Shown here: piece after piece, positions 9,376 through 42,136 of the stretch
Numbering within the stretch: the stretch's first letter is position 1
Layout of the letters: each line of letters starts with the position of its first letter
Assembly (NCBI GenBank): GCA_021108375.1
Contig: JAIORA010000051.1
Coordinates: 1-54,694 of the forward strand
Source: Anaerohalosphaeraceae bacterium
GTDB lineage: Bacteria; Planctomycetota; Phycisphaerae; Sedimentisphaerales; UBA12454
DNA: 54,694 bases
Direction: 5' to 3'
Made by a program: the position numbers and the translations under genes
Notes under the pieces: generated by a model
Told to the model about the DNA's origin: nothing
The model's input: only the letters and a program-made list of their open reading frames with translations
Database searches by the model: none

Positions 9376-9438
9376 ATTTACGTTGTCAGTAAATTTTGAA
9401 CTCAATCCAATTCCGGATATTGCTTTGGATACTAAAAA

Positions 9439-13609: not shown

Positions 13610-13611
13610 GA

Positions 13612-14295: not shown

Positions 14296-14341
14296 TTTTT
14301 CACCTCGAAATCGAAAGCAATTATTAGAGCTACCCTATGTT

Positions 14342-15484: not shown

Positions 15485-15631
15485 TTAGAGCATTTTAAGA
15501 TTTTATGTACTGGTTTAGGCCGTTATGAGGACAAGGTTGACAAAGAAGATTGCGCAGTGATATTGAAATCTCGCGAGCAAATCTGATGCCGTCAGCCGAA
15601 GCCACAGCAGGCATAAACGGTACACTAAAAA

Positions 15632-21556: not shown

Positions 21557-21574
21557 CAAAAATATTCCTGAAAA

Positions 21575-25352: not shown

Positions 25353-26782
25353 CAGCGACCAATTACTCCTCTAAACGGCATCATCAATTCCTGCAATCGT
25401 GCTTTCGTCAATATGCCGAAATAAATCTCAACAATAATAAATACAACCACTGCCGGCAGCAACGCAAATACAGAATAATTCACAAAATATCCAGCAACAA
25501 TTATAACCGCCAGCGGCAAACCAACTTTCACCAACAAAAGACCTGCCCCGATATTGCCAAAATGATGCCTAAGAATAAACAGCCTTAAAAAACCAACAGG
25601 AAATATCCAAACAACAAACTCAGCCATCGGCAATGCCGCTGCTCCAATATTAACACCCGAAATATTCATTGGTATCAACAAATAGTAAAGCCCTACTGTT
25701 ACAACAGCAGTTAAAGGGTCCAGCATCGCGATTAACTTGTGCTTTTCTATAGCATAAATAATATGTGAATAAGGCCGCCAGAACAAACGGGCAACTATCG
25801 AAAGCCCAAGAAACTTCAAAATAAACCCTGCCCTGACATTCTCTATGCCGAATATGGTTTCGACAACAAAGCCTGAACCAAAGACAAGACATATCGTAAG
25901 CAGCCCGCTGCAAAAACTTAGAACCTGTCGCAGGTCCTGAAACTTTTTATGAAAAAAGCCCGGCACATTAGCTACTCTATGAGCAATTTCAGTAAACATC
26001 GTATTGGTTACGGGCTTAATAAGTCTGTCAAACATTCCATAACATCGCATAGCGACTTGGTAAAAACCGACCTCCTTAAGGCCTATCAAGCTGCCAAGTG
26101 CAATCTTATCGAAATGACTCAAAAACCTGCCGACTATGCTTGAAAAAGCTATCGGCAAAGAATAGCTAAAATACTTGCGGAAACCCACTCTGGTTAACGA
26201 CGAAAAATATGGCAACTTCTTCTTATGGAAATAGACCACACCACCCAAAATAGTTATCAGAGGCAATACGAACTTACTGGCCGCAAGCAAATACAAATCG
26301 GGCTTTACGAAACACACAAATAACGTATAAGCCAAAGCTATAAGCGCCGCAATTATTTCAACACCTGAATAGTACTTAAAATCCCTTTTGCCCACAAAAG
26401 TCATCGTGAAAAACTGCGAAACCAGCTCAGCAATCAAAACTCCGAAAACCAGCCACAACAACTGTCCATCAAGCTGGCCATATCTGAGCTTTAAAAAATA
26501 TGCTCCCGAAAACACAACGAAAGTAACAACTATAAGCAGAGCTTTAAGAAACAAAAAAGTGCTTATATCACGCTCATCATCATCGGAGGCGAGAAATTTG
26601 CTGTAAGCCTGCGACAATCCCAAATCTGCAAAGACGCTGTACAGCCCGGCAATACTGTAATAATAAATAATCTTACCCCACGTCTCAGCCCCAAAAATAC
26701 GAATAACCAAAATCATTGGCAAAAGACCTATCGCCGAAGTCAGGATATTGGAACCAATTCTTATGTAAGTATTCTTTATCAC
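25352..26782 (-). CDS. Wzx-like polysaccharide flippase (MOP superfamily)
   Basis: 476 aa, with about 12-14 hydrophobic helices spread along the whole length. The start ILTSAIGLLPMILVIRIFGAETWGKI and the F-x-D-x-G segment YSVFADLGLSQ are typical of O-antigen and capsule translocases. It should flip undecaprenyl-linked repeat units across the inner membrane. No Wzy polymerase or Wzz is recognised in the window. The start appears to be GTG without a clear ribosome-binding site. Confidence 0.88.
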   Translation of the reverse strand: MIKNTYIRIGSNILTSAIGLLPMILVIRIFGAETWGKIIYYYSIAGLYSVFADLGLSQAYSKFLASDDDERDISTFLFLKALLIVVTFVVFSGAYFLKLRYGQLDGQLLWLVFGVLIAELVSQFFTMTFVGKRDFKYYSGVEIIAALIALAYTLFVCFVKPDLYLLAASKFVLPLITILGGVVYFHKKKLPYFSSLTRVGFRKYFSYSLPIAFSSIVGRFLSHFDKIALGSLIGLKEVGFYQVAMRCYGMFDRLIKPVTNTMFTEIAHRVANVPGFFHKKFQDLRQVLSFCSGLLTICLVFGSGFVVETIFGIENVRAGFILKFLGLSIVARLFWRPYSHIIYAIEKHKLIAMLDPLTAVVTVGLYYLLIPMNISGVNIGAAALPMAEFVVWIFPVGFLRLFILRHHFGNIGAGLLLVKVGLPLAVIIVAGYFVNYSVFALLPAVVVFIIVEIYFGILTKARLQELMMPFRGVIGR

Positions 26783-26799
26783 AGTTCAAAAACAATACG

Positions 26800-27486
26800 T
26801 CAGGACATCTTTTCATCGAATAAACTGATTGACTTAAAATAATCGTTATCCCTGTGCTTTATCACCAGGTTCGGCGAGCTGCCAAAGACTATCGAATTGC
26901 CTGGAATATCTTCATCCTTAACATAGGCATTGGCAGAGATGATGCAATTTCTACCTATTTTACAATTTCCTATCACCATAGACCCGGCAAGCATTGTAAC
27001 ATATTTTTCGAATGTCGGGTACACACCATAATTATTTCCGACAGTGCAATTTTGAGTGAAGTAGAAAAAATCGGAGTAATCAGCTCTGCCCATAACTGAA
27101 CCTAACGGATGGTCCAGCCCGAAAACAGCCGGCAGTTCAACTTCATAATACAAATCAACCGAATTCAAAGCTCGGTTGAGATAATATACCTTATCGGCCA
27201 GCAGAGCATCGCCCAACAAGGCAACCTGTCTTGATAGGTGATATAGGAATATCGTGTACTGACCAGAATGAAACGGATTGAAGTAAACCTGACCATCTTT
27301 TTGGTAATACTTATTTCCTTGATAAGAAAAACAATGCTCGCATTTTTCTATCGCCCCATTTATTGCCACAATCAAAATATCCGGGGACGTCTTTTCAAAG
27401 CTGAAAAAATTCCGTAGTTGGTTCAGTACCAAATCCTGTAACTTAGATTTTGAAATTGACATTAACATTGGCATCACTTTCAACAT
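26800..27486 (-). CDS. Left-handed beta-helix (hexapeptide) acyltransferase-like protein
   Basis: 228 aa. The C-terminal third carries imperfect hexapeptide turns: CTVGNNYGVYP, MVIGNCKIGRNCIISANAYV and DIPGNSIVFGSSPNLVIK. This pattern is like serine O-acetyltransferase and sugar O-acetyltransferases. The N-terminal 120 residues are unlike the usual domains and may bind the acceptor. A transferred acetyl or other acyl group on the glycan is likely; substrate unknown. Confidence 0.75.
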   Translation of the reverse strand: MLKVMPMLMSISKSKLQDLVLNQLRNFFSFEKTSPDILIVAINGAIEKCEHCFSYQGNKYYQKDGQVYFNPFHSGQYTIFLYHLSRQVALLGDALLADKVYYLNRALNSVDLYYEVELPAVFGLDHPLGSVMGRADYSDFFYFTQNCTVGNNYGVYPTFEKYVTMLAGSMVIGNCKIGRNCIISANAYVKDEDIPGNSIVFGSSPNLVIKHRDNDYFKSISLFDEKMS

Positions 27487-27493
27487 TCAAACA

Positions 27494-28756
27494 TTATTTC
27501 AGGCGTTTACAAATATCTTCATAAATCCTGCCACAGGAATTGAAATCACAATACCCGAGAAACTTTTCTATAAAATCGTTCCGTTTGTCAGGATTCATCT
27601 CGTAATCGTCAAAACTTTTTCTAAAAAAAGTTTTGACAAAACCATCCACAGATTCATTATAAACCACTGATTCGAAATTATAGTAGCTACCCGCCCTGAA
27701 CGAATATGCCGAAACGGAGAACCTTGGGGCACAACACTTCCAATCTTTGGGGTCTCTCGCCCCCAGACATATATTTGGAACACTCAAGGCAGAGGATTCT
27801 TTTATAGCATCACTGTAAAAGTGTATGCACAAATCAGCCACATACAAAAGTTCCATAATTGTGTAGGGATAATAGCTTTCATCAAGAATCACTCTGTCGG
27901 CTATGGACTTCAGATAAGGAGGTATTTTGTTCTTAGCTCGGCCCTTGACAACAAAAAAAGCATTATTTCTATCACAGAAATCTCGCAATGTCTGAGCAAC
28001 CTGCTTGTCATCAACTGTATTAAAAACTTTTGGGATGGATGCAAAATCGCCCCTTAACAACAACCTGGCAATTTTTAAGATTTTATTTTGCGGCTTATAT
28101 AAAATATGGCTCCATTTGCAAAATGGTACCCGCCAGGGAAAAGGAAGATAAACAACTACCTTCTTATCTTTAGGTATGCCGTACTTTTCACAAATTGACA
28201 AGCGGTCAAAGGTGGCAACTTGTTCTACTTGTGAAAACCCGGAAATCACCGCTTTTGTATCAATTTGCTTAAATAGAGGGCCTTGAACATTTGTGGGCAA
28301 CAATCCTAATTTAACAACCCATTCTTTCCACAAATCTTTACAACTTTCAGAAAAAAGATACACAACGTCCACACAAGATATGTCCGTTGCAGAAAAGATA
28401 TCACCGCCTGCCTGTAAATGCGCAAAAATAATATCAATTTTTTTTTCTGCTAAAAAATCCTTTGCTTCTTTGATAATGGGATTTATTGCGAGAAAAAAAA
28501 CTACCCGCAATTGAGTGTCTATAATCATCTCTGCAAATTCATTTGCGGTATGAAAAGCCCTGGTATCATCTCGCCCAAAAATACTATGAATATCTTCGAC
28601 GTGAGGGTATTGATATGCTTTATAGCCACAACTTTTTGGGGCTTGAGTATTATCGCATAAAAGAACAATCCTATCCCCTTTTTTACGAAAATAATCGATA
28701 AGTGGGCCAAGATGCCCTAAATAATTCATCCTACCAATATAAAAACCTATTTTCAC
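27494..28756 (-). CDS. Unrecognised protein, possible GT-B glycosyltransferase
   Basis: 420 aa. The start KIGFYIGRMNYLGHLGPLIDYF looks like the first Rossmann strand and glycine loop of a GT-B enzyme or a UDP-GlcNAc 2-epimerase relative. DIIFAHLQAGGDIFSA and the later VVVYLPFPWRVPF and LYVADLCIHFYSDAIKESSALSVP fit a second nucleotide-binding domain with an 'S-S-A-L-E-like' donor loop. I do not recognise a named family. The start is GTG with GAGG upstream. It lies between the hexapeptide transferase and fkbH-like genes, so a role in the same glycan is likely. Confidence 0.7.
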   Translation of the reverse strand: MKIGFYIGRMNYLGHLGPLIDYFRKKGDRIVLLCDNTQAPKSCGYKAYQYPHVEDIHSIFGRDDTRAFHTANEFAEMIIDTQLRVVFFLAINPIIKEAKDFLAEKKIDIIFAHLQAGGDIFSATDISCVDVVYLFSESCKDLWKEWVVKLGLLPTNVQGPLFKQIDTKAVISGFSQVEQVATFDRLSICEKYGIPKDKKVVVYLPFPWRVPFCKWSHILYKPQNKILKIARLLLRGDFASIPKVFNTVDDKQVAQTLRDFCDRNNAFFVVKGRAKNKIPPYLKSIADRVILDESYYPYTIMELLYVADLCIHFYSDAIKESSALSVPNICLGARDPKDWKCCAPRFSVSAYSFRAGSYYNFESVVYNESVDGFVKTFFRKSFDDYEMNPDKRNDFIEKFLGYCDFNSCGRIYEDICKRLK

Positions 28757-28791
28757 GAAACCTCAGAACCCCAATAATAAAAACATACCAA

Positions 28792-30672
28792 CTATTTCTT
28801 AACGGCCCCTTGAAAAACCTTAACATACGTTTTTAAGCTCTCAAATGATTCGACAGCTAAATACCATCGTTCAGAATCATTGCTATCAATCATCCTGAAA
28901 CCAAGTTTTTTAAATAAATCTGCCACATAATTGTTCCTAACTGTACGAATGAATTCCCCACAAATCGTGCTGCAATTCATTTCGCTTGCATAATTCACAA
29001 GATGATTAAATATAAATTGCTCGAAAGTCCTCGAAAAAACCCTGCAACTCATTATCCAGTTATCAATCCTGAGAATGTCTTCCGAAATTTCACCTGTAAT
29101 TGCAGAAACCAATCCATAATCCGCAAACTTATCACAAAGTTTCGAGCACAAACAAAATTTGCTTGTATTCAATATATACTCAGACAAATTTGATGTATCA
29201 TATTTGCGACCTGTCAAATTGAACTGGTTGGTCTTATTAAACATCTGACAAATTCTCGGCAAATCATTTTCAGTTGCAACATCAACTCTGCCAGCCATAC
29301 ATAAACTTTCTAAAAATCCTTCAAGATTTAAAGCCGACTTCCGGAGAGACTCAACCTTACCACGCTGCAAATAAGAATCTGTCCTGCCTAAATCCTCACG
29401 AGTGATTTCAAGCTGATTGAAAAGATGGAGCTTTTCGAGTTTCTCTATGAAATAAGCGGGGTCCCCATCCATTTCAATTACTGCAACTTCAGGAAGAGTC
29501 CTGCTAACTTCGGCACATTCTACAGGATTGTCATCAACGAACACCAGTGAGTCCATCCCGATATTAAGATGCTCAGCAATACTCGCTATATTTTCAGATT
29601 TACTTTGCCAGTTACAACAAAAACATGCAAAATCATCCAACTTGAGAGGCATTTCAGAATGTTTAAGAAAAACTTCTTTGGCCTGCTCTGAATCGTTTTT
29701 ACTACATACCGCCAGAATAATACCTCGTTTTCGGAGCTCCTTAATATATCTGCAAAACCCACTGTACGCCTCTCCTGTAGCAGAGATATTACCTATCTGT
29801 ATCCCTTCAATACCATCATCACCAACTATCCCACCCCAAAGAGTATTATCCAAATCCACGACAAGACACTTCTTCGATTTTCCGGCTATCGCACAATGCA
29901 ACCCCGCAAACATCCTTCCATATTCCCATGACAACTCAGGATTAATACCGAATTTACCAAAATACCACCATCGAGAATCAAGCCATCTGGTCAAACCACA
30001 TCTTACAGAAGAACCAAATATATCCAGCAAATACATTTCTCTGGAATCCATCTGCCATAGGATATTATTCAATGTTTCAACATACTTTGAATGCGACCAA
30101 CTATATTTGAATTCAAGCCTGGACAATAATTGCTCAACCGGATATTCAAAATTGTGCTGAATTATTGTCGCGCCAGTCTTTTCCTTTACTATCTCCCACA
30201 AATCCCGAAATTGTTCCACAAGCGTTTCCGCCATCGCAGTTACTTGCCCTGCGGTACTTCCAGCAAGAGGAAATTCTTCAATATTTACTGTGCCAGTAGC
30301 AAAGAGCACCACTTCTGGCTGAAAAGCATATAAGCCACTCGACGCATCAAGAACCTCTATCTTGTACAAATCATATTCAGATTCATAACTCTCAACAACC
30401 CAACCCTCAGCAAGAAGATGCGTCTTTATGGCATTAACAATTACAGAAGTGGTAAAGCCGCCAAGTACAGCTATTTTTAAGGACTTATTCGACGAAAAAC
30501 TCGAAAGTACATCTCGATAGCGGTCAATAAGTCTGCTAATCTTCTGCATATCACTCGGCAATAAATAAATAACCGAAAGATTTCTGATATATGACATCGC
30601 ATCGGCAACACTGCCTGATGCAAGGCAATCAGAAAAAGTCTTTATAAGATTAGACTTATCCAATTTACTCAA
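28792..30672 (-). CDS. FkbH-like HAD (subfamily IIIC) protein with GNAT domain
   Basis: 626 aa in the full FkbH-like order: an SGNH-like N-terminal domain (about 65-250), a HAD domain with D273-L-D-N-T-LWGG, AVCSKND and FVDDNP, then a C-terminal GNAT-like domain (about 440-610). In characterised polyketide systems FkbH-type enzymes take 1,3-bisphosphoglycerate and load a glyceryl group onto an acyl carrier protein. An ACP gene sits four genes upstream in the same operon, which fits glyceryl-ACP formation. The start is TTG in a TTGA overlap with the preceding methyltransferase. Confidence 0.9.
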   Translation of the reverse strand: MSKLDKSNLIKTFSDCLASGSVADAMSYIRNLSVIYLLPSDMQKISRLIDRYRDVLSSFSSNKSLKIAVLGGFTTSVIVNAIKTHLLAEGWVVESYESEYDLYKIEVLDASSGLYAFQPEVVLFATGTVNIEEFPLAGSTAGQVTAMAETLVEQFRDLWEIVKEKTGATIIQHNFEYPVEQLLSRLEFKYSWSHSKYVETLNNILWQMDSREMYLLDIFGSSVRCGLTRWLDSRWWYFGKFGINPELSWEYGRMFAGLHCAIAGKSKKCLVVDLDNTLWGGIVGDDGIEGIQIGNISATGEAYSGFCRYIKELRKRGIILAVCSKNDSEQAKEVFLKHSEMPLKLDDFACFCCNWQSKSENIASIAEHLNIGMDSLVFVDDNPVECAEVSRTLPEVAVIEMDGDPAYFIEKLEKLHLFNQLEITREDLGRTDSYLQRGKVESLRKSALNLEGFLESLCMAGRVDVATENDLPRICQMFNKTNQFNLTGRKYDTSNLSEYILNTSKFCLCSKLCDKFADYGLVSAITGEISEDILRIDNWIMSCRVFSRTFEQFIFNHLVNYASEMNCSTICGEFIRTVRNNYVADLFKKLGFRMIDSNDSERWYLAVESFESLKTYVKVFQGAVKK

Positions 30673-31574
30673 TCCTGTTTCCTTACGAGAAAACCAACAA
30701 TCGTCGGCCTCTTCTCAATGGGTTTTTGAGGGTAATTAGATTCAATTTGTGTGTCACAAATCTGCCAGCCAGCATTTTCAAGCTGCTGCTGAACCTCTTC
30801 TGGGCTTCGGTAAAGATAGATGTGGTCGGTATGTGCAGCATTGATGGCAGCCGTAATATAACCCCAGCCCCCGCTCCGAACAGCTGAATATAAGGAGTCA
30901 ATAAACAACTGTGGTTTATCAAGATGTTCAAGAACCTCCTGGCTTATCACTAAATCAGCTTTACGCTCAATCGGTTCATCAATAATATTTTGATTTATTA
31001 TCTTATAACGTTCACCGTAACCATGAGATTTCGCCACCCTTAAAGTGAACTCCAGTGCATAATCGCTTATATCATAACCAATACCACATGCCTTTGGTAT
31101 GGTGTTTAAAGCCCACTGTGAATACATCCCGCAACCAACCCCAACCTCATAAAACAGCGACACATTCTGCATTATTTGAGGTAGTAAATTGTTAATAAAA
31201 CGGCGAAGCATCTTCTGGTGATGGGGCCATATATAATGAGACAAGTATTGCCCCGGCAAATAACGCTTCTTCATATAATCTGCGCTATGATAACATTCCT
31301 CAACTGTCTCTTCGTAACTGGTAGCTTTATATGCCCCTGTCTTTTCAAAATAACATTGTGCACGCAATGCCTCAGTACAAAATTCAGCATAACCGCTTAT
31401 CGCTTCATCCCACCTCTCATTATATTCACTACCAAAGACTCTGGATATATTCAGAGATATTTCCTCCTCCCATTGTTCGCCAAATTGCTCCAGGCTTTCC
31501 ATCCACAATGGCGCATAAACAGGATACATTTTGTTCATTCTCTCATAAAGATTTTTAAATACTGAATTAGTCAT
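30669..31574 (-). CDS. SAM-dependent methyltransferase of the ACP cassette
   Basis: 301 aa from the chosen ATG. An N-terminal helical region (1-110) precedes the SAM core: FYEVGVGCGMYSQWAL (motif I), GIGYDISDYALEFTL (motif II) and DLVISQEVLEHLDKPQ (motif IV). The frame opens at a TTG at 31,613; the ATG at 31,574 has GGAG about 11 nt ahead. It overlaps fkbH by 4 nt, so it may methylate the carrier-bound acyl group, for example an O-methylglyceryl; that is inference. Confidence 0.85.
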   Translation of the reverse strand: MTNSVFKNLYERMNKMYPVYAPLWMESLEQFGEQWEEEISLNISRVFGSEYNERWDEAISGYAEFCTEALRAQCYFEKTGAYKATSYEETVEECYHSADYMKKRYLPGQYLSHYIWPHHQKMLRRFINNLLPQIMQNVSLFYEVGVGCGMYSQWALNTIPKACGIGYDISDYALEFTLRVAKSHGYGERYKIINQNIIDEPIERKADLVISQEVLEHLDKPQLFIDSLYSAVRSGGWGYITAAINAAHTDHIYLYRSPEEVQQQLENAGWQICDTQIESNYPQKPIEKRPTIVGFLVRKQD

Positions 31575-31621
31575 AATATTTTTAACTCCATTTTTAAAAC
31601 CAAAACAAATCAAATAACGTT

Positions 31622-32053
31622 TTACTTTTCACGAACAACACTTCTCACCTTGGCAATGGCGACCAATTCGCCATTACCCTTGAAAACCTTAACTTTTATC
31701 AAAACATGATTGACACTCATCGAAATATCCACGATTTCACCTTCTATTCGTATCCTGTCGGGCGGCACAATTGGTTTTTTGAAGTCAATGTCCATATTTG
31801 TCATAATTCCAATTCGACCAGGCAGTCGCATTCCGATAAAACTCGAAATGAAAGCCCCTGTGAGCATACCATGAGCTATTCTGCCTTCGTAACCCTTAGT
31901 CATCGCAAAATCGCTGTCCATATGAACAGAAGAATAATCTCCCGACAATTCAGCGAACCGGTCGATGTCATCTAATGTAACATCAACACTAATTTTGTCG
32001 GACTGACCAACAGTTAAATCAGATATGAAATACTCATTCATTTCCATAATCAT
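31622..32053 (-). CDS. MaoC-like hot-dog dehydratase/hydratase
   Basis: 143 aa from the chosen ATG. The active-site pattern SGDYSSVHMDSDFA gives the Asp/His dyad of (R)-specific enoyl-CoA hydratases (usual form SGDxNPxHxD), followed by RIAHGMLTGAFISSFIG. Single hot-dog domain, so a dimer is expected. An upstream in-frame TTG lies inside the ribosome-binding site; the ATG at 32,053 has GGAGG 5 nt ahead and forms an ATGA overlap with the AAC(3)-like gene. It probably acts on a carrier-bound acyl chain. Confidence 0.88.
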   Translation of the reverse strand: MIMEMNEYFISDLTVGQSDKISVDVTLDDIDRFAELSGDYSSVHMDSDFAMTKGYEGRIAHGMLTGAFISSFIGMRLPGRIGIMTNMDIDFKKPIVPPDRIRIEGEIVDISMSVNHVLIKVKVFKGNGELVAIAKVRSVVREK

Positions 32054-32943
32054 AAATGCCTCCAACTATGCATAATATAACCGGTCCAGTTCATATTATC
32101 CGCCTCCTGCTTACTAAGATGCTCCGGCGTGCCTTCATTGGGGATTATATCATCCCGCCAGACAGGTGGACTCTTAAGAAACGAGTAAATATCCTCTGAA
32201 AGCATATCATATCCCACTTCGAGCTGTTTTTTTAAATCGCTTGAATAAAGAATTCCATCGCCAACAGGATGCTGTTTCAAAAACCCTTTTCTGTCTATCT
32301 CTTCTATATATCGTTTGTAATCATTTTTTATTACAAATCCTTTATACATCACATTAATTGTAAATATCTTATCACTGAGTTTGCCATTCTTGTGAACATT
32401 AGCTTTGACTATCTTGTTATAGTAATACGGCACTGCATAAGTACATTCAACATAATGGGCTCCCGTAACAATATGGCCCTTATGATACTCAAAGCCAAGA
32501 CAAACACTATGCCCACCACGCTTAAAAAGATTGTCAAAAGCACTCCTGATTCCAAAACTGCTTGTGCTTACATTGCCGCATATTTCACGAGCATATTTAC
32601 CAATCGCTGTCAAAGAATGCACCGGATGAAAACTGCGGACAGAAGCCGGGTGCGTTCTGACATATTCAGAAATTACACCACACAGGCTTTCTGTTGTCTC
32701 GTTATGATAGTCTATCCCAAATGTACCGACCTGTTGAGAATAAGTCGGAGTTACTAATGTGCCATTATCGCCAATAACATCAAAAACCGCTTCAAAGTAA
32801 GCCTTGCCAACATCTTCACTGCTCCTACATCCTTCCATTCTGCCCAGTGTATGCAGCCGAACAAACAAAAACACCAAATCTCCTTTGCCTATACCAACTG
32901 CTCGCAAAGCTTTTTTTACATCATCTACGCTATATGTCTTCAT
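32050..32943 (-). CDS. AAC(3)-family N-acyltransferase
   Basis: 297 aa. It shows the family start KGDLVFLFVRLHTLGRMEG, the segment GTLVTPTYSQQ and RSFHPVHSLTAIGKYA, whose His corresponds to the catalytic residue. The family is named for aminoglycoside 3-N-acetyltransferases, but many members in glycan clusters acylate amino sugars. It is wedged with 4-nt overlaps between ACP and MaoC genes, so it is a good candidate to move an acyl group from the carrier to a sugar amine. Antibiotic resistance is unlikely as its role. Confidence 0.88.
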   Translation of the reverse strand: MKTYSVDDVKKALRAVGIGKGDLVFLFVRLHTLGRMEGCRSSEDVGKAYFEAVFDVIGDNGTLVTPTYSQQVGTFGIDYHNETTESLCGVISEYVRTHPASVRSFHPVHSLTAIGKYAREICGNVSTSSFGIRSAFDNLFKRGGHSVCLGFEYHKGHIVTGAHYVECTYAVPYYYNKIVKANVHKNGKLSDKIFTINVMYKGFVIKNDYKRYIEEIDRKGFLKQHPVGDGILYSSDLKKQLEVGYDMLSEDIYSFLKSPPVWRDDIIPNEGTPEHLSKQEADNMNWTGYIMHSWRHL

Positions 32944-33176
32944 TGAATACGCTTAGCCTCAAGAAGCTTTGCCATATCTCCAACGCAGGTCAAAACACTG
33001 ATTTCTTCAGTAGTAAATTTAATATCATATTTTTCCTCAAAAGCCACGATAAGATTTATCTGAGCCATTGAATCCCACTCTGAAATGTCCTGAGCCGTCA
33101 TCTGTTCAGTCACTTCCAAATTAGTGTCATCAAAAACATCTCTAAATACTTCGTTAATATCTTCCATAATGGACAT
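32940..33176 (-). CDS. Acyl carrier protein
   Basis: 78 aa, acidic four-helix carrier. The phosphopantetheine site is S36 in EWDSMAQI (usual DSL). AAGGAG lies about 10 nt before the ATG. It is a dedicated carrier within the glycan operon, with an ATGA overlap into the AAC(3)-like gene. The likely cargo is a hydroxyacyl or glyceryl group delivered by the FkbH-like protein at 28792. Confidence 0.93.
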   Translation of the reverse strand: MSIMEDINEVFRDVFDDTNLEVTEQMTAQDISEWDSMAQINLIVAFEEKYDIKFTTEEISVLTCVGDMAKLLEAKRIQ

Positions 33177-33190
33177 AGCAAGAATACTCC

Positions 33191-34534
33191 TTATAACTTT
33201 TGTATAGTTGATTTACTGAAAAAACACATAGACTTCTTTATTTCTGTTCTATTTTCCCACACTTTCATAAATGCTTTTACTACATCATCCATATCGCTTT
33301 TGCTCATAAACGAATGCATCAGCTCGCTGATAAACAATTCTTTTTCATACATTCGTTCAGCAACAGGGCAAAGTCCTTTATTGTAACTTATGTTATCAGA
33401 AAATTCCAGCTCTGCAAAAGGAAATCCTTTATTGCCATAAGCTATTTTCCTCTGGAAAAGAGGCAGCAAATACAACGGTTTGACATAGCCGCAACTGATT
33501 TTCACTCCCTCGTCTTCTCTCAATTCCGTTGGCATCAGTTCTGCCTTGACCGCTTCAACAAAACAATCTCTCGATATGCCTGCTATTGCTTCATCAAATT
33601 TGAATGGCTGAACATAATAGGAATGTTCACAGTTTTGGCGAACAGCAGGTACACTGATTGCCGGAATTTCAGCCAGCTTTTCGTTGAGATATGCACAGTT
33701 TTCCTGTCGTTTATCAAGCAGCGTTCTTAACTTCTTGAGCTGGCAACGAGATATTGCCGCCTCTATCTCTGTCATACGAAAATTATAACCTATCATATTA
33801 GCAATATCAGCACAGCCCTTGTTTTCAACAACAGCCTCCGCGTGATTTCTAATAAGACGAACCCTTTCAGCGAGTGCATCGTCATTGGTTACCACAACCC
33901 CGCCCTCCCCGCAATGGATATGCTTGTGGTAATTTAAAGAATAAACGCCAACATCTCCAAGCGTTCCCGCATAACGATTTTTATAACAGGCACCAGGAGC
34001 TTGCGCGGCATCCTCAATAACACTAATGTTATATTTTTTTGCTATGGCATTTATTTTCTCGACATTGTACGGCTGGCCAAAAATATCCACTATAATGATA
34101 GCTCTGGTTCGGCTGGTTATTCGCCGCTCCACAGAATCCGGGTCCAGGCAAAAATACTCTTCCTCAACATCAGCAAACACAGGTATCGCGTTGTAAATTA
34201 GAGGCGCGACCGCCGAAGCACTCATCGTATAAGGCGAAACAATAACTTCCTCGCCCGGCTCAATCCCGACAGCACCAACAGCACAATACAATCCGGAAGT
34301 ACAGGAATTGACCGCAATCGCGTGCTTAACCCCAAAATATTCAGACCATTCACTCTCAAGAGCCTGTACCTGCGGGCCACCATTAAACTTATCGCCCCAA
34401 CCGCCTATATACTGAGAAAGCTTTCCGGAATCCAACACTTTTTCAACCGCACTTTTCTCCTCTTTGCCTATGGTGGAATAAGCGGGAAAAAGTTTATTTC
34501 GGACAGGACTGCCGCCATTGATTGCTAACTTCAC
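33191..34534 (-). CDS. DegT/DnrJ/EryC1 family PLP aminotransferase
   Basis: 447 aa from the chosen GTG. Hallmarks are NSCTSGLYCAVGAVGIEPGEEV, VIEDAAQAPGA and the PLP-lysine segment SLNYHKHIHCGEGG. It should transaminate a keto-sugar. It is distinct from the PseC aminotransferase at 39917 and longer than usual (about 370-400 aa). The chosen GTG forms a GTGA overlap with pseF and gives the typical start MKLAINGG; an upstream TTG at 34,555 is open but unlikely. The substrate may be the 4-keto product of Gmd or another intermediate. Confidence 0.9.
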   Translation of the reverse strand: MKLAINGGSPVRNKLFPAYSTIGKEEKSAVEKVLDSGKLSQYIGGWGDKFNGGPQVQALESEWSEYFGVKHAIAVNSCTSGLYCAVGAVGIEPGEEVIVSPYTMSASAVAPLIYNAIPVFADVEEEYFCLDPDSVERRITSRTRAIIIVDIFGQPYNVEKINAIAKKYNISVIEDAAQAPGACYKNRYAGTLGDVGVYSLNYHKHIHCGEGGVVVTNDDALAERVRLIRNHAEAVVENKGCADIANMIGYNFRMTEIEAAISRCQLKKLRTLLDKRQENCAYLNEKLAEIPAISVPAVRQNCEHSYYVQPFKFDEAIAGISRDCFVEAVKAELMPTELREDEGVKISCGYVKPLYLLPLFQRKIAYGNKGFPFAELEFSDNISYNKGLCPVAERMYEKELFISELMHSFMSKSDMDDVVKAFMKVWENRTEIKKSMCFFSKSTIQKL

Positions 34535-35229
34535 AACAGCCCCCTTTTCTTGCAAACCTCATACATTATTTCAGCTCTATCCCAATCTTCGCTGGTATCT
34601 ATATCGACTACAAGGTACTCTGGCAATATAATAGGCATTATTTGTTTTGCGAAAATACTTCCGCTTTGCATAAATTTTTTGACGTTAAGCCAATAAAAAT
34701 GCGCTGCATCGTGATATGCTTCGCAAAGTTTATTTGAATGTGTAAATTCATATTCCGGCCAGAGCAATTCAATCCTCCCCGCATCATCTTTTCTGAACGC
34801 CCTGAATACGGGGTGCGGATATTTTGCGACAGACATCACCGTATCAACGCAATGCTCCTGCATCAAATTGAAACCATCAACAATATATTTCGATTTAATA
34901 AACGGTGCGGTAGCAACAATACAACAGGAATTAGATACCTGCCGGCCCTGATTTTCAAACCAGGCAATAGCGTGTTTAATAACATCAGCAACATTTACAC
35001 TATTATCAGATAACTCTGCCGGACGCATAAAAGGAACAGACGCACCAAAGTTACGGCTAATCTGAGCAATCTCATCAGAATCTGTCGAAACAATAACCTC
35101 ATCGAACAGACCACTATCCACTGCTGCTTCGATGGAATAGGCTATAATCGGCTTGCCTGCAAAATCCTTTATGTTCTTTTTCGGAATTCGGCTACTGCCG
35201 CCACGAGCTGGAATAACTGCGATATTCAA
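34531..35229 (-). CDS. pseF: PseF, CMP-pseudaminic acid synthetase (NeuA family)
   Basis: 232 aa. MNIAVIPARGGSSRIPKKNI and the neighbouring FAGKPIIAYSI are the cytidylyltransferase signature; DEVIVSTDSDEIAQISR follows. It activates a nonulosonic acid as CMP-Pse. Assignment to Pse rather than Neu or Leg rests on the PseB, PseC, PseG and PseI genes upstream. ATGA overlap with the preceding gene. Confidence 0.9.
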   Translation of the reverse strand: MNIAVIPARGGSSRIPKKNIKDFAGKPIIAYSIEAAVDSGLFDEVIVSTDSDEIAQISRNFGASVPFMRPAELSDNSVNVADVIKHAIAWFENQGRQVSNSCCIVATAPFIKSKYIVDGFNLMQEHCVDTVMSVAKYPHPVFRAFRKDDAGRIELLWPEYEFTHSNKLCEAYHDAAHFYWLNVKKFMQSGSIFAKQIMPIILPEYLVVDIDTSEDWDRAEIMYEVCKKRGLL

Positions 35230-36344
35230 AATAATTGTTCCTTAACATTATTCTCATTCAGACAATCTATAAGTAAGTTGCCGATATTGACGGGCGACTG
35301 CATATGCAGTCGAAGCTCATCTCTTATGCTGCTCGGCTTATCCGTTCTTGCCATCTCATTCATCCAGACATCCAATACTGAATCCCACTCAATCTCATCA
35401 ACAAGGCAGTGCAGCCCTTGCCTCTTTTGCAAAAAATTCAAATCCTGTCTGCACAAATTCGGCTGCAGGCTGATTGTAGGCTTGTTTAATAACCACGCTT
35501 CATAAAGCAGAACCGAAACCATTCCCGCGATACCATCCGCTAAAAAAACGGAGTCGCGACCACTGCCCATCTCAAGCAATCCACCTTCTAATGGCCCGTG
35601 GAATTTTTGCCAATGTTCATAAAGCCGGGCACTATTTTCTCTTGGGTGAGCGACAAGTCCAATTTGATATTTATCGGAAAACGGCTCAAGCCTGATACAA
35701 AATTCTTTGAGAACACTTTTCTCAGTGTACCCGCGATACTGAGAACATTCCGACCCGGAACCCTGGTCGTCCTCTACCGGCTCTGAAATAAAAGCTATCA
35801 ATTTCTTATCTTTGTTCAAGCCAAAACTATCAAATACTTCATCTTTGCTTTTGGCAGCCCAATGCTCATAATCTCTGCCAAGCGATGCCATCGCTGGTTG
35901 CCCGACTATCCTGAGCGAAGATACGGAGATGCCCTCTTTGCGGGCCTCTTCAAACGCCAGTTCATCCATCACAAGATATTTATCAGGCAAAAACATTTGC
36001 CCACCATCCATCTCAAGTCTGTTTCTGTAATTCATCCAGTTGTCGAGAAGGAATATAACATAGAGACCTTTTCGCTTTGCGAGTCTGGCGAGTTTTAAAG
36101 CAAAAACATCTTTGACGCTTGAAGTAAATATAAGTATCTTAAAATGACCTTTTTCAAATAAACTTTCCAAAGAGCCTTGCCCTTCCAAAACCGCTGGAAC
36201 TCGTTGCCATTTTTCATCCGCATCACTGCTCAATAAGCCATTTTCCACGATACTAAAAGGCTCATCAATTTCAGAAAGATGACGCAACACCGAGAGCATT
36301 GCTCGCGCACCACCAACATCACCAGATACCGCAAGAATACTCAT
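35226..36344 (-). CDS. Unrecognised protein of the pse cluster, possible GT-B enzyme
   Basis: 372 aa. It begins MSILAVSGDVGGARAMLSVL, a nucleotide-binding-like first strand. LYVIFLLDNWMNYR, DKYLVMDELAFEEA and VVGQPAM-like LRIVGQPAMASLG resemble lipid-A-disaccharide-synthase or epimerase-like GT-B folds. A C-terminal ADGIAGMVSVLLYEAWLLNKPTISLQ stretch fits a donor-binding domain. No named family is recognised. Overlaps of 4 nt on both sides place it firmly within the Pse operon. It could be the Pse glycosyltransferase. Confidence 0.7.
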   Translation of the reverse strand: MSILAVSGDVGGARAMLSVLRHLSEIDEPFSIVENGLLSSDADEKWQRVPAVLEGQGSLESLFEKGHFKILIFTSSVKDVFALKLARLAKRKGLYVIFLLDNWMNYRNRLEMDGGQMFLPDKYLVMDELAFEEARKEGISVSSLRIVGQPAMASLGRDYEHWAAKSKDEVFDSFGLNKDKKLIAFISEPVEDDQGSGSECSQYRGYTEKSVLKEFCIRLEPFSDKYQIGLVAHPRENSARLYEHWQKFHGPLEGGLLEMGSGRDSVFLADGIAGMVSVLLYEAWLLNKPTISLQPNLCRQDLNFLQKRQGLHCLVDEIEWDSVLDVWMNEMARTDKPSSIRDELRLHMQSPVNIGNLLIDCLNENNVKEQLF

Positions 36345-37318
36345 CGGTCAATCCCTACCGCTCGTTCAACATTGTTTACAATGGCAAGCGTCTCGCCAGC
36401 GGTGGTTAAATTGCTTACAGGCTCACGATTTTGTTGATGAGATGTAACAAGGTCGTTCAGGGCCATCAACATTGCTCCTTCAATTCCTCCGGGGCCTAAT
36501 ATATCCGATTCTGTTTCTTCCAATCTGTAGAACCCATGAAAAAGCTTATGCTCTACTTTGGTTTCGACACGCGTTTCCATACCTCCATATAAAATAGCCA
36601 ACCTGCCCTGTTCACAGGTCAGTTCTATATCAATGCAATGATAAGGCAACTTCATTCCTGTTACAAAAACGCTTACTCCGTCTGATGTTTTAAGACAGAA
36701 TGAAGGATTACTGCTATCAGCTATCGAAATATTTTCTAAAGACAATGACGCTTTGTCCCCTAAAATAAGGGAAAGAATATCAATAATATGCGCTCCATTT
36801 GATTGCAGCCCGCGCGAATAAGTTAAATGAATAGATACCGTTTTGCCAAAAACCTGCTCGGCATACGCGCCTTTCAGCCGATTGTAACAATCACAATATC
36901 TCCTCTGATAATTAACAAGTACCGTGCTTCTGCTGCCTTTTTGCATTTCGATAAGTTTTTCCAAATCCGCCAAATCTTCTGCGGGAGGTTTCTCAAGCCA
37001 TATCATAGGCACTCCCGCCTCAATGCAGCGACACGTATGCTCGAAATGCATCTTCGTGGAAGAACAGATACTTACAATTTCCGGCGAAGTCTGTTTCAGC
37101 AATTCATCAACGCTCTCAAACGCAGGCACTTTATAGTGTTGCGAAAAATCCTGACAGTCTTTCTGCTCATTGGAACAGCCCCCAACCAAAATCACTTCGT
37201 TATGAGCCTGATACACGCCCGTATGAGTTTGCAATGTCCCCTTACCGCCGGAACGATTCAAATCATACTTCCAGGCAACATTACCAAGGCCTATTACAGC
37301 TGCTTTGTATTTTTCCAT
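36341..37318 (-). CDS. Gfo/Idh/MocA family oxidoreductase
   Basis: 325 aa from the chosen ATG. KAAVIGLGNVAWKYD is the NAD(P)-binding loop; MIWLEKPPAEDLADLEKLI carries the EKP motif of the family. Typical substrates are nucleotide sugars or inositols. It sits between pseI and pseF, where extra modification enzymes for nonulosonic acids are often found. The ATG at 37,318 is preferred over an in-frame TTG at 37,327. Confidence 0.88.
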   Translation of the reverse strand: MEKYKAAVIGLGNVAWKYDLNRSGGKGTLQTHTGVYQAHNEVILVGGCSNEQKDCQDFSQHYKVPAFESVDELLKQTSPEIVSICSSTKMHFEHTCRCIEAGVPMIWLEKPPAEDLADLEKLIEMQKGSRSTVLVNYQRRYCDCYNRLKGAYAEQVFGKTVSIHLTYSRGLQSNGAHIIDILSLILGDKASLSLENISIADSSNPSFCLKTSDGVSVFVTGMKLPYHCIDIELTCEQGRLAILYGGMETRVETKVEHKLFHGFYRLEETESDILGPGGIEGAMLMALNDLVTSHQQNREPVSNLTTAGETLAIVNNVERAVGIDR

Positions 37319-37346
37319 TGAAACCAATTACCTCAAATAGAAAAAT

Positions 37347-38426
37347 CTATTCATTAGAACCACCCTTGACCATATCCCAATCTATCGGGCTGCCGAACGG
37401 CACATCTTGAGTAGCGGCTTTGCCCAGAATATCAGGCAAATGCCTCGGCAGCAATCCATCAGACGGCCTTACCGAACGAATATTCTTTTCGGTAAAAACA
37501 TCGCCAGCTTTAATATCCTCAGCTGCAAATAACGAACGCCCAAACTTCCTGCTGGCTTTGGCATTCTCTGTCAGCTTGTAATCAACCTCGCCCATCGCGG
37601 CTTCGGTCTTTCTAATGTTATCGACCATACTTTTAAACTCTGTCGGCTCAAGCGAAAATGCGGAATCGAGTCCACCGTTTTTCCTGTCCAGAGTAAAATG
37701 TTTTTCTATCACAACCCCGCCAACTGCCACAGCAACTGCTGGCAGCATCATATCAAGACTATGGTCTGAAAGGCCGACAAGGGTCGAAAATCGCCCTGCC
37801 ATATCAACCATCACACGCAAATTCATATCCTCTGTCTTTGTGGGATAGGCACTCGTACATTTCAGCAGAATCACATCATCATTGCCGACCTTATGACAGG
37901 CATCGATTGCGTCCTGAATTTCAGCAAGCTCTGCAATACCGGTAGAAATTATTACAGGCTTTTTTTTACTGGCAATATATTCAATAAGCCCGACATCAGT
38001 TATCTCGAACGAGGCAACCTTATAGGCAGCAACTCCCATTTCCTCAAGAAAATCCACCGCGGTTTTGTCAAACGGACTGGAGAACAATATCAACCCAAGC
38101 TCTTCCGCTGCTTTTTTCAGTCTCGGCTGCCATTCCCACGGCATAGTCCCCTGCTGATAAAGCTCGTATAATGTTTTGCCGTCCCACAAAGTGCCGTGTT
38201 GAATGCGAAAATATTCATTATCGCAATTTAGAGTCATTGTATCAGCTGTATATGTTTGCAGCTTAACCGCGTCGGCACCAGCAACCGCAGCCGCACGAAT
38301 AATTTCAACAGCATCCTCAAAACTGCCGTTATGATTAGCTGAAACTTCCGCAATTATAAAAGCCGGCCCAGCCTGCGACACTTTTTTGCTGCCTATTCGA
38401 ATTTCTATTTTTTCTGATTTTTCCAT
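37347..38426 (-). CDS. pseI: PseI, pseudaminic acid synthase (NeuB family)
   Basis: 359 aa. The NeuB TIM barrel starts AFIIAEVSANHNG; AVKLQTYTADTMTL, VISTGIAELAEIQ, LLKCTSAYPT and LSDHSLDMM follow. The C-terminal SAF antifreeze-like domain includes RSLFAAEDIKAGDVFTEKNIRS. It condenses 6-deoxy-AltdiNAc with phosphoenolpyruvate to pseudaminic acid. The TADTMTL and YELYQQGTMPWEW stretches are usual for PseI rather than NeuB or LegI. Confidence 0.93.
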   Translation of the reverse strand: MEKSEKIEIRIGSKKVSQAGPAFIIAEVSANHNGSFEDAVEIIRAAAVAGADAVKLQTYTADTMTLNCDNEYFRIQHGTLWDGKTLYELYQQGTMPWEWQPRLKKAAEELGLILFSSPFDKTAVDFLEEMGVAAYKVASFEITDVGLIEYIASKKKPVIISTGIAELAEIQDAIDACHKVGNDDVILLKCTSAYPTKTEDMNLRVMVDMAGRFSTLVGLSDHSLDMMLPAVAVAVGGVVIEKHFTLDRKNGGLDSAFSLEPTEFKSMVDNIRKTEAAMGEVDYKLTENAKASRKFGRSLFAAEDIKAGDVFTEKNIRSVRPSDGLLPRHLPDILGKAATQDVPFGSPIDWDMVKGGSNE

Positions 38427-38449: not shown

Positions 38450-39907
38450 TTAAAGCTCTTTGATATACTTACCGGAACTAAAGCCTTTTATAACAACGGA
38501 CTCAACTAAACTAAATCCGGAATTTTCAAAAGCCGCCGCCGAGACTTTATTAGAATCTTTAATATATGCTGCTATTTTTTTAACTGCCGCCTCCCCAGCC
38601 ATTCTTTTAATCGCCGCAGCAATTATAAAAGCTGCCAATCCAAGCCCGCGTAATTTTTCAGTAAGGCCGATGCTTATTACCGCCATACCGCCGCCGGAGT
38701 CTATATCAAATCGAACCTGCCCAAGAAAATCGTCTCCATCACAAACGCAATACAAAACACATTTCTCGTCAGCAACCCTGTCCTCAAGCCAGCCAATATG
38801 CCCGGGCCACTGAATCGGTTCCGACGAAAAGGAATTCTCTCTGACAACTTCGTCGTTAGCCAAATCAAATAAAGCTCTGGCATCATTAATGCCTGCAGGC
38901 CGTAAATGAATTTTTTTTCTGTAATATCTCCCGCACACCGCCTTAACAACTCTCGCCGCGCCAAGCCCGTCAATATTCTGCATCGCCGCGTCTATGCTAA
39001 CTTTTCTATTTTGCGCACTCTTATAATGCTTTAGCTTCTCATCTAATCGCTCGGCCAAACCCTGTTCAAAGGCCCCGCCAGCATACTGAATAAAACCCGC
39101 CTTTTCCCAGCCGACGATATTATTCAACTGATTATCCGCAAGCGAAACAACAACTGCCGGCGTTCGCGTTACAGCAAGCTCATTCAAACTTTGCCCGCCC
39201 GCAGACACAGCAATATCGCTGCTGGCCATTAACTCAGCCAACTTCTCAACATCCGGACAGCAAACTATTTCGATAGCTGCCCCATAAAGCAATTCCAATC
39301 CCGCCAGCTCCTCACTTGCTGATGAGACAACCACTTTAAGCCTCACCTTGCCGAAACATCTCGTCACCGCTTCCACCGCAATCGAAATAAGTGTTTCTCT
39401 GTTAGCCCCCCCAAAACTTATTAAAACCTGCTCTACCTCTTCCGCAAATTCTTTCGGCGTAACATCAGCAAACTGTTTTCTCACAAGGCCGTATTCGCTT
39501 CCGGACAAATACTCCAGGCCATCCTTTTCAGGGTAAGGCAAAGCCTGTGCATTTATCGCAGCATTAACAACAAAGCCATCAGGATAATCTATCCGCAAAT
39601 CATCATCTAAATAAACCCCTTGTGCGGAGTCGGATATTTTTTCATAATGGGCGAGTCCCGCAAGATAGGAGTCCACAACAACAATATCACCTTCTTCGCA
39701 AATCTGCTGAAAGTATTTTTCGTCATTAACCCAGTCAATTTTTTGATAGTCGATTTCGCTAAGTATCGCCCCCAGCGTATCATCGCCATTTACAACAAAC
39801 GCTGGCTTCAAGCCTCTGTCCTGAAAAGCCTGATAAATAGCTAACGTCCTTGTAACGTGGCCAAGGCCATATTTCCTGCCGCCTTCGGTAAGAATGTAAA
39901 TTTTCAT
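38450..39907 (-). CDS. PseG-PseH fusion: UDP-sugar hydrolase plus GNAT N-acetyltransferase
   Basis: 485 aa. Residues 1 to about 325 are PseG: YILTEGGRKYGLGHVTRTL with H17 at the position of the catalytic His of Campylobacter PseG, VLISFGGANRE and SAGGQSLNELAVTRTP. Residues about 333-485 are a GNAT domain (IHLRPAGINDARALFDLAND, GHIGWLEDRV, IGLTEKLRGLGLAAFII) matching PseH, which N-acetylates the 4-amino group. The PseG product is one step after the PseH product, so the fusion joins consecutive steps. The order on the chain (hydrolase first) is the reverse of the reaction order. Confidence 0.9.
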   Translation of the reverse strand: MKIYILTEGGRKYGLGHVTRTLAIYQAFQDRGLKPAFVVNGDDTLGAILSEIDYQKIDWVNDEKYFQQICEEGDIVVVDSYLAGLAHYEKISDSAQGVYLDDDLRIDYPDGFVVNAAINAQALPYPEKDGLEYLSGSEYGLVRKQFADVTPKEFAEEVEQVLISFGGANRETLISIAVEAVTRCFGKVRLKVVVSSASEELAGLELLYGAAIEIVCCPDVEKLAELMASSDIAVSAGGQSLNELAVTRTPAVVVSLADNQLNNIVGWEKAGFIQYAGGAFEQGLAERLDEKLKHYKSAQNRKVSIDAAMQNIDGLGAARVVKAVCGRYYRKKIHLRPAGINDARALFDLANDEVVRENSFSSEPIQWPGHIGWLEDRVADEKCVLYCVCDGDDFLGQVRFDIDSGGGMAVISIGLTEKLRGLGLAAFIIAAAIKRMAGEAAVKKIAAYIKDSNKVSAAAFENSGFSLVESVVIKGFSSGKYIKEL

Positions 39908-42062: not shown

Positions 42063-42136
42063 TGCTTTTTTCCTCAATAAATTAAAACACGTAATTTGGT
42101 GTAAATAGCCCGTTAAAGCACAATGTACTAAGAGTT

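Follow-up and report, generated by a model that had tools for sequence, protein, structure and literature searches.

A predicted carrier-protein acylation cassette with a recurrent MaoC partner in a pseudaminic acid locus of an Anaerohalosphaeraceae bacterium

What acyl group is made, and on which amine is it placed, by a carrier-protein cassette that lies inside a pseudaminic acid (Pse) gene cluster? The question is raised by a 54,694-nt contig, JAIORA010000051.1, of an Anaerohalosphaeraceae bacterium from the Planctomycetota (assembly GCA_021108375.1; genome G000, 2.36 Mb, 93% complete), the whole of which was analysed and is called the window here. Six genes at positions 28792–34534, all on the minus strand, encode a DegT-family aminotransferase, an acyl carrier protein (ACP), an AAC(3)-fold acyltransferase, a MaoC-type protein, a methyltransferase and an FkbH-type protein; they lie within a long run of same-strand genes that holds a complete pse set. 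A preliminary description had proposed that the unit makes a glyceryl-derived acyl-ACP from which the AAC(3)-fold protein acylates an amino sugar of the glycan. In our view there is about an even chance that the five genes from ACP to FkbH build on the carrier a three-carbon acyl group that is O-methylated and likely dehydrated, and that the AAC(3)-fold protein transfers it as an amide to an amino-modified Pse. Other loci and genomes are cited below by our own L and G numbers.

All six genes are present, each with one terminal stop codon, and searches with Pfam and NCBIfam profiles bore out the families read for the DegT, AAC(3)-fold, MaoC, methyltransferase and FkbH proteins. Nearly all of the genes had been said to overlap by 4 nt; this holds at three of the five junctions (ACP/AAC(3), AAC(3)/MaoC and methyltransferase/FkbH) and was overstated for the other two, at which gaps of 14 nt (DegT–ACP) and 47 nt (MaoC–methyltransferase) are found. 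PseF and DegT, directly outside the six-gene unit, likewise overlap by 4 nt.

The proposed route would begin with the FkbH protein (28792–30672, minus strand, TTG start), the sole FkbH match in the genome. It is a full-length HAD-IIIC protein with both N- and C-terminal regions and a DLDNT HAD motif, and it scores 287.1 bits against TIGR01686 (cut-off 146.65) and 38.8 bits against the FkbH N-terminal domain PF21211 (cut-off 27). Judging from its family, it is predicted to load D-glyceryl from 1,3-bisphosphoglycerate onto Ser36 of the ACP. This carrier (32940–33176, minus strand; 78 aa) is encoded in the same operon, with the AAC(3), MaoC and methyltransferase genes in between. NCBIfam ACP models recognise it at E ~1e-6, with scores under their cut-offs, and no Pfam model does so at E ≤ 0.001; a W-D-S36 motif is present, and the phosphopantetheine serine is kept in 11 of 11 aligned ACPs. 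The methyltransferase (30669–31574, minus strand, ATG at 31574; PF08242, 39.5 bits) is of the S-adenosylmethionine-dependent type and is predicted to O-methylate the ACP-bound acyl group, probably at the 2-OH of glyceryl. Its family is also found near FkbH in L002/L024, L003, L028, L029, L086, L092 and L104, and because it adjoins FkbH and ACP without MaoC or AAC(3) in L028, L029 and L092, the acyl group is its most likely substrate.

MaoC (31622–32053, minus strand, ATG at 32053) is a single hot-dog hydratase/dehydratase of 143 aa that scores 62.1 bits against PF01575 (cut-off 27). Aligned to PhaJ (1iq6), it retains the Asp and His that we take to be catalytic in that enzyme; D39 and H44 occur in 10 of 10 MaoC sequences, and the Asp/His pair in 27 of 27 compared, whether from cassettes or not. 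It is predicted to dehydrate the ACP-bound acyl group, with β-elimination as the reaction suited to a glyceryl thioester. Loss of the α-hydrogen and the 3-OH from 2-O-methylglyceryl would give 2-methoxyacryloyl-ACP; without prior methylation the product would be enolpyruvoyl-/pyruvoyl-ACP, the enol of pyruvoyl being a species that a short-chain dehydrogenase/reductase (SDR) could reduce to lactoyl. The acyl group would then be 2-methoxyacryloyl, pyruvoyl or lactoyl.

The AAC(3)-fold protein (32050–32943, minus strand; PF02522, 94.5 bits) is the sole PF02522 match in the genome, and its H163 is conserved in all 16 aligned sequences, its own included. It is predicted to pass the acyl group from the ACP to an amino sugar, forming an amide, a step to which the fusions described below lend support. 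It shares the fold family PF02522 (over cut-off) with FrbF and the AAC(3) acyltransferases, chains of which are its sequence relatives with solved structures; unlike theirs, its donor is predicted to be an acyl-ACP. An identity as an aminoglycoside resistance gene was rejected, the best NCBIfam AAC(3) score being 60.6 bits against a cut-off of 270.

Do these parts belong together? The strongest argument that they probably share one route comes from gene fusions. AAC(3) is joined by fusion to FkbH, to ACP, to MaoC and to a protein like Cj1295 of Campylobacter jejuni, which supports the earlier proposal of an FkbH–ACP route feeding an AAC(3)-fold acyltransferase. An AAC3::FkbH protein is encoded on a Maritalea plasmid (L026), and AAC3::FkbH::ACP is found in L101 (G269, from the same phylum as the window). 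When the 7999 candidates sharing most words with the L101 protein were scored, at least 41 of 63 homologues among the matches listed, the query's own record included, were found to carry PF02522 and to cover at least 84% of the query. The MaoC::AAC3 fusion of L016 is one protein in the database, and a homology search with it returned that protein only; AAC3::DUF4910 is found in database protein P0080. MaoC is fused to an SDR in a single open frame at eight loci (L026, L040, L042, L096, L103, L106, L122 and L124), three of which (L026, L122 and L124) add a C-terminal ACP. Of these calls, L106 and L124 were made by in-house profiles only and L103 by Pfam, and the Pfam MaoC score of L122, 23.6 bits, is under the cut-off of 27.

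The cassette also recurs as a gene order. An AAC(3)-profile scan of species genomes gave five loci, and the whole order ACP–AAC3–MaoC–methyltransferase–FkbH is kept in a Bdellovibrionales metagenome-assembled genome (MAG; L002, continued by L024 on a second contig, with the break inside the methyltransferase) and in a Rhodospirillaceae MAG (L003). Because it recurs in two distant genomes, this order is beyond chance. L004 spans 3 kb only and has AAC3 and ACP; L005 and L006 have AAC3 without FkbH or MaoC. Within the window's own phylum the AAC(3) profile matches 8 of 392 genomes at E ≤ 1e-20, the next best value after G000 being 2e-33, and besides G000 the cassette adjoins AAC(3) only in G159 (L016), where FkbH, ACP, MaoC::AAC3 and DUF4910 are found with fliS a few kilobases away. 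In the phylum of the Rhodospirillaceae MAG the profile matches 9 of 398 genomes, and FkbH and MaoC stand beside it in three (L003, L040 and L042). L041 has ACP, AAC3, DUF4910, Gfo/Idh, the conserved protein gp35226 (below), PseF and DegT, and no FkbH in the 13 kb examined; L044 and L045 have NeuB-type genes, one of them also DUF4910, without FkbH or MaoC, and L046 and L047 have none of these.

A survey made from the FkbH side gives MaoC a larger place. In the window's phylum FkbH scores above cut-off in 30 of 392 genomes, at 33 places, and all 33 regions were inspected. Within 6 kb on the same strand lie ACP (23 places), MaoC (8), MBOAT (7), methyltransferase (6, one of only 21 bits), AAC3 (5) and SDR-type genes (5); MaoC is accompanied by an SDR at four places and by a methyltransferase at four, one of which is the 21-bit case. 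When the two profile members, the window and L016, are set aside, MaoC lies near FkbH at 6 of 31 places, against about 0.02 expected by chance. The latter value was calculated for 30 regions from the 89 MaoC places found in the 392 genomes at E ≤ 1e-8, by a profile that includes cassette rows, and assumes a mean genome of 4.9 Mb. Outside the phylum MaoC stands by FkbH in L002/L024, L003, L026, L040, L042, L121, L122, L123 (Subdoligranulum, Bacillota) and L124 (Sinorhizobium sp. RAC02). Altogether FkbH and MaoC occur together at 17 loci in four phyla (Planctomycetota, Pseudomonadota, Bdellovibrionota and Bacillota), so that the MaoC step, which was new to the author of the preliminary description, is a recurrent partner and not an oddity. 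Ten of the 17 also have AAC3: the window, L002, L003, L016, L026, L040, L042, L121, L122 and L124. Two cases were not counted for MaoC: G212, where it lies at a contig end (L111) and FkbH on another contig (L082), and L093, where it is weak and on the opposite strand. MaoC matches in seven further genomes of the phylum (L112–L117 and L120), and likewise that in L118, have no FkbH, AAC(3) or ACP match in the stretch examined; in L119 (G164) MaoC adjoins AAC(3) and MBOAT, with no FkbH within 10 kb.

A lack of co-occurrence with pse genes had been named as grounds for refuting the proposal, and the comparison did not refute it: NeuB or PseI is found in the region at four of the ten loci (the window, L003, L026 and L124). 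In Sinorhizobium sp. RAC02 (L124), PseI and PseF above their equivalog cut-offs lie near AAC3::FkbH, MaoC::SDR::ACP and DUF4910. L002 has the sugar-side genes described below on the same contig, and NeuB-type genes occur elsewhere in the genomes of L040 and L042, on separate contigs (L135 and L136); the stretches of L016, L121 and L122 hold no NeuB or PseI.

Gene content, conserved order, fusions, co-occurrence with pse or neuB genes in part of the loci and the retention of catalytic residues are all observed. To a wider proposal we give somewhat less than an even chance. In at least four phyla, a stand-alone machine resembling a polyketide starter unit (FkbH, ACP and MaoC, often with a methyltransferase and/or a ketoreductase) would turn 1,3-bisphosphoglycerate into a palette of three-carbon acyl groups (glyceryl, O-methylglyceryl, 2-methoxyacryloyl, pyruvoyl and lactoyl) for interchangeable transferases, AAC(3)-fold proteins serving amines and MBOAT proteins hydroxyls. 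The product of the window would be an unsaturated acyl amide on a new amino-nonulosonic acid, such as an 8-amino-Pse made by Gfo/Idh and DegT, a decoration not yet described.

Several observations weigh against the route proposed here. MaoC is absent within 6 kb on the same strand at 25 of the 33 FkbH places of the phylum, and 10 of the 33 have no detected ACP. Neither FkbH nor MaoC stands beside AAC(3) in six of the eight own-phylum genomes with the AAC(3) profile (seven places), one of which, G040 (L019), has a DUF4910 gene on the opposite strand and a weak ACP match. L043, from one of the nine AAC(3)-profile genomes in the phylum of the Rhodospirillaceae MAG, has FkbH–ACP–AAC3–DUF4910 with pseB and pseC and lacks MaoC. 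The polyketide module OocJ combines dehydratase, methyltransferase, FkbH and ACP domains, the same set as in the cassette, and its authors think the dehydratase and methyltransferase non-functional (PMC4552970). The MaoC rows do not form one clade, and since the tree needs three changes of cassette label, MaoC has seemingly been recruited more than once; long branches leave the details of this tree, in which L119 was entered among the cassette rows, unsure. The closest solved relatives of MaoC are (R)-specific enoyl-CoA hydratases. Reduction, were it part of the route, is unexplained in the window because there is no SDR among its cassette genes. Finally, six of the ten FkbH–MaoC–AAC(3) loci have no NeuB or PseI in the stretch examined, and a plasmid of Erwinia rhapontici, pERA53 (L122, 2543–13535), and a near-identical plasmid of Rahnella sikkimica (L121) carry the cassette with no detected nonulosonic-acid gene, from which it follows that the acceptor is not always a nonulosonic sugar. 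On these plasmids the acyl machine seemingly works towards a small-molecule product.

Some of these points would suit a plainer scheme of the C. jejuni type, in which FkbH and the methyltransferase make (O-methyl)glyceryl-ACP and AAC(3) transfers it unchanged, with MaoC off the path as an editing enzyme or as a hydratase for another substrate. A Cj1295-dependent 5-(2,3-di-O-methylglyceroyl)amino-Pse is reported from C. jejuni (PMC3068675), and both L043 and the trio L028, L029 and L092, which have FkbH, ACP and methyltransferase, do without MaoC. Against this stand the fusions of MaoC to AAC(3) in L016 and to SDR and ACP in three loci, its frequency near FkbH and the retention of its catalytic pair in every sequence compared, and we consider the scheme unlikely, though deserving of some weight. 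The hydratase relatives would instead suit a PhaJ-like function, in which fatty-acid metabolism supplies a 2-enoyl thioester, MaoC hydrates it to a (3R)-hydroxyacyl group such as 3-hydroxybutyryl for use by AAC(3), and FkbH serves a separate modification. Pse bearing 3-hydroxybutyryl occurs in rhizobial K antigens. The cassette contains no enoyl source, however, and FkbH and AAC(3) appear to share one route because they are fused in many proteins; we regard a PhaJ-like function as very improbable.

The SDR partners of MaoC suggest a further possibility, in which enolpyruvoyl-/pyruvoyl-ACP formed by MaoC is reduced to lactoyl-ACP, a housekeeping FabG-type enzyme replacing the fused SDR in the window genome; the methyltransferase may then give 2-methoxypropionyl. 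The chemistry is consistent, since β-elimination of glyceryl leads to the enol of pyruvoyl. SDRs adjoin MaoC in the eight fusion loci, three of them with ACP, and separate SDR genes are found in L086, where MaoC, methyltransferase, SDR, FkbH and ACP are adjacent, and in L121, L104 and L123; the call in L086 is confirmed by Pfam, and the other three have weak profile scores of 21–27 bits. In the window, L002 and L003, however, the cassette includes a methyltransferase and no SDR, and no SDR was seen in L016 or L094. In the tree, moreover, the window's MaoC falls together with the L003, L123, L002 and L086 proteins and not with the SDR-fused rows, a placement of little weight here because L086 and L123 have a separate SDR gene. 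We think a lactoyl product in the window improbable, and retain methylation followed by dehydration as the preferred reading.

From where does the amine come? DegT (33191–34534, minus strand, GTG start; 447 aa; PF01041, 293.8 bits) had been counted as part of the acyl cassette. It belongs instead to a sugar-side module with Gfo/Idh and gp35226, since this module occurs without the cassette in L138, L139 and L140. The Gfo/Idh/MocA oxidoreductase (36341–37327, minus strand; PF01408, 62.3 bits) is predicted to make a ketone that DegT aminates; the lysine of DegT in HKHIHCGEGG sits at the position of the PseC lysine (HPVKAIACGEGG). The third member, gp35226 (35226–36344, minus strand), is a conserved protein without a name that co-occurs with the other two; it has no Pfam or NCBIfam match at E ≤ 0.001, and an AlphaFold model made from two sequences was unusable, with a mean pLDDT of 40.5. 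The DegT subfamily (438–547 bits) lies beside Gfo/Idh and gp35226 in L136, L138, L139 and L140, and the Gfo/Idh module is also found in L002, L041, L136 and L138–L141.

The module keeps company with nonulosonic-acid genes. In the phylum of the Rhodospirillaceae MAG the gp35226 profile matches 8 of 398 genomes, in five of which (L041, L136, L138, L139 and L140) it is adjoined by the DegT subfamily and Gfo/Idh. Seven of the eight have a nonulosonic-acid gene (NeuB, PseB or PseF profile) in the region; none is seen in L137, at a contig end. PseI of L139 and PseB of L140 are above their equivalog cut-offs; neither the PseI nor the NeuB cut-off is reached by the NeuB proteins of L136 and L138. L135 (G442) has gp35226 with NeuB and no DegT, L003 has it with Gfo/Idh and NeuB, and on an Azospirillum plasmid (L141) DegT, Gfo/Idh and gp35226 share a region with a NeuB-type gene. 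Four genomes have both the AAC(3) profile and gp35226; without the seed G393 and the profile member G578 two are left (hypergeometric p 0.004). In Azospirillum argentinense plasmid p6 (L141, 9995–12337), the window-subfamily DegT is part of a 780-aa protein with a C-terminal methyltransferase-like domain of the UbiG type.

In C. jejuni, Cj1295 is aminopeptidase-like and is needed for 5-(2,3-di-O-methylglyceroyl)amino-Pse, and its authors think that it frees the C5 amine (PMC3068675). Cj1295 probably carries DUF4910, and DUF4910 proteins of about its size are found near AAC(3) in L016, L019, L026, L041, L043, L044 and L124. DUF4910 (PF16254) has no match at E ≤ 0.001 in the window genome, which is 93% complete, and the amine there therefore likely comes from DegT, the sugar-side module likely making, in place of DUF4910, the amine that AAC(3) acylates. 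Gfo/Idh would likely oxidise the nonulosonic acid, most simply at C8, and DegT would transaminate the resulting ketone, at a stage close to CMP activation. C8 was chosen for two reasons: modification of Pse at this position is known, and the best solved relatives of DegT include the 8-amino-Kdo transaminase (5k8b, 180.9 bits, second best; 8gyh, 225.1 bits; WbpE, 128.6 bits). We take 8gyh to be the aminotransferase Fic25; a literature search on it gave nothing relevant, and it carries no weight here. The known C8 modification is an 8-epimerisation by EpaA, which has cytidylyltransferase and reductase domains, and EpaB (PMC12053666). For 8-amino nonulosonic acids no relevant paper was found by title among the matches listed.

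Pairs of Gfo/Idh and DegT proteins make UDP-2,3-diamino sugars in known pathways, and the acceptor could accordingly be another amino sugar: a UDP-2,3-diamino sugar made by the pair in the manner of WbpB/WbpE or GnnA/GnnB, or a dTDP-Qui4N or GDP-perosamine made by DegT, acylated by AAC(3). The Gfo/Idh protein does match the UDP-GlcNAc 3-dehydrogenase model NF040723, at 53.4 bits and far below the cut-off of 450 (WbpB and GnnA themselves fall outside the comparison), and rml- and gmd-type genes are present in the window by sequence reading only. Gfo/Idh and DegT, however, flank PseF in the window and in L041, their neighbours in L136, L138, L139 and L140 include NeuB-family or PseB genes, and DegT is closer to the 8-amino-Kdo transaminase than to WbpE. 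The probability of such an acceptor appears low to us, and amino-modified Pse is preferred.

The Pse context itself is clear. PseF, the CMP-pseudaminic acid synthetase (34531–35229; TIGR03584, 281.1 bits, cut-off 205.7), PseI, the synthase (37347–38426; TIGR03586, 488.8 bits, cut-off 340.25), the aminotransferase PseC (39917–41077; TIGR03588, 522.4 bits, cut-off 423.5) and the dehydratase PseB (41070–42077; TIGR03589, 508.8 bits, cut-off 407.75), all on the minus strand, exceed their NCBIfam equivalog cut-offs, which upholds the context given in the preliminary description. The PseG hydrolase (38450–39907, minus strand) scores 121.9 bits against TIGR03590, below the cut-off of 153.55, and is fused to a GNAT domain, a probable PseH (PF13302 at residues 333–465).

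The glycan more likely ends in a surface polysaccharide than on flagellin. The window has a Wzx-type flippase and, by sequence reading, glycosyltransferase-like genes; a possible glycosyltransferase (27494–28756, minus strand) without a Pfam match shows a weak match to the BFO_1060 family (NF046086, 20.8 bits, far under the cut-off of 200). The genome has two flagellin matches and no match to PF01973, a weak test in that the model matched only archaeal controls and Maf-type transferases are not excluded by it. We take PF01973 to be the Maf family, though it is named MptE-like in the profile library.

With PseB, PseC, PseI and PseF, FkbH, the AAC(3)-fold gene and an ACP (below model cut-offs), the window has the C. 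jejuni-type set. In the Cj1295 region, too, pse genes share a locus with the fkbH-domain gene cj1302 (PMC7099621) and the N-acetyltransferase gene Cj1296/7 (PMC3068675). L016, L026, L043, L044 and L124 resemble it in having AAC(3) near a DUF4910 protein of about Cj1295 size; the window differs in its amine source through Gfo/Idh and DegT without a DUF4910 match in the genome, in its extra MaoC and in the Wzx-type flippase nearby. ACP, AAC(3)-type and methyltransferase genes are presumably also part of the C. jejuni flagellin locus. Tannerella forsythia is reported to have a Pse with a glyceroyl amide, Pse5Am7Gra (PMC6388019); its glyceroyl gene "remains elusive" as of 2018 (PMC6120980), and a 2019 review calls the genetic basis of the substitution "a major challenge" (PMC6388019).

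The acyl side has its likeness in polyketide and peptide starters built by FkbH and ACP, in part with an O-methyltransferase (tetronates, suomilide/varlaxin and OocJ), with which our proposal shares glycerate on a carrier and O-methylation (PMC4979870, PMC10143770, PMC4552970); for suomilide/varlaxin, the proposed source of O-methylglycerate is FkbH combined with an O-methyltransferase domain (PMC10143770). The cassette differs in that its enzymes are free-standing, no ketosynthase is seen in it, and its product would go to AAC(3) or, elsewhere, to MBOAT. Aeromonas group III flagellin islands share with the window Pse-type genes, Gfo/Idh, PLP-dependent transferases, a methyltransferase and an "acyl dehydratase"; their legend names no ACP, FkbH or AAC(3), and no proposal of a mechanism was found there (PMC7874193). 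PMC4875605 and PMC3765264, in the parts available, name ACP or fatty-acid-type genes, but not FkbH or MaoC by those words. Among the matches listed from the open-access literature on FkbH and pseudaminic acid, MaoC does not appear and FkbH occurs with pseudaminic acid only in PMC7099621, though absence is not proven by this.

Neither glyceroyl-Pse nor the presence of an fkbH gene in its locus is new. The novelty lies in the MaoC or MaoC–reductase step that recurs, in the complete range of fusions and in a module, separate from the cassette, that likely makes the amine. The fusions point straight at the loader, carrier and transferase for glyceroyl nonulosonic acids, enzymes that the literature consulted does not pin down. 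The MaoC and SDR additions predict acyl masses of 84.02, 70.01 and 72.02 Da, for which Sinorhizobium sp. RAC02 and Maritalea myrionectae are available as isolates, and the split into an acyl side and a sugar side offers a simple rule for predicting unusual bacterial relatives of sialic acid from genomes.

Some minor observations may be added. The GC content is 0.38–0.40 across the cassette (26001–34000), compared with 0.40–0.43 at 14–26 kb and 0.42–0.49 elsewhere in the window; this low value and the close AAC(3) match in G000 alone of 392 genomes of its phylum make horizontal transfer of the cassette possible. As read from sequence, rmlA-, rmlC-, rmlD- and rmlB-like genes lie divergently beside pseB (43058–46152), a gmd-like gene lies downstream (21575–22570), and a radical-SAM-like protein with a CTALCTFC motif is encoded inside the glycan locus (20129–21559). 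The L121/L122 cluster comprises AAC3::FkbH, MaoC–SDR–ACP, a CDP-alcohol phosphatidyltransferase, HAD, nucleotidyltransferase–aminotransferase, ATP-grasp and MFS proteins. In L086 (G017, 2195–16161) each strand carries an FkbH–ACP cassette: AAC3 and a methyltransferase accompany the first, and MBOAT, MaoC, a methyltransferase and an SDR the second, in the order MaoC–methyltransferase–SDR–FkbH–ACP–MBOAT. On Sinorhizobium meliloti plasmids (L027 and L030), neighbouring MBOAT, ACP and FkbH genes of the same strand form a candidate system for O-glyceroylation in a model symbiont.

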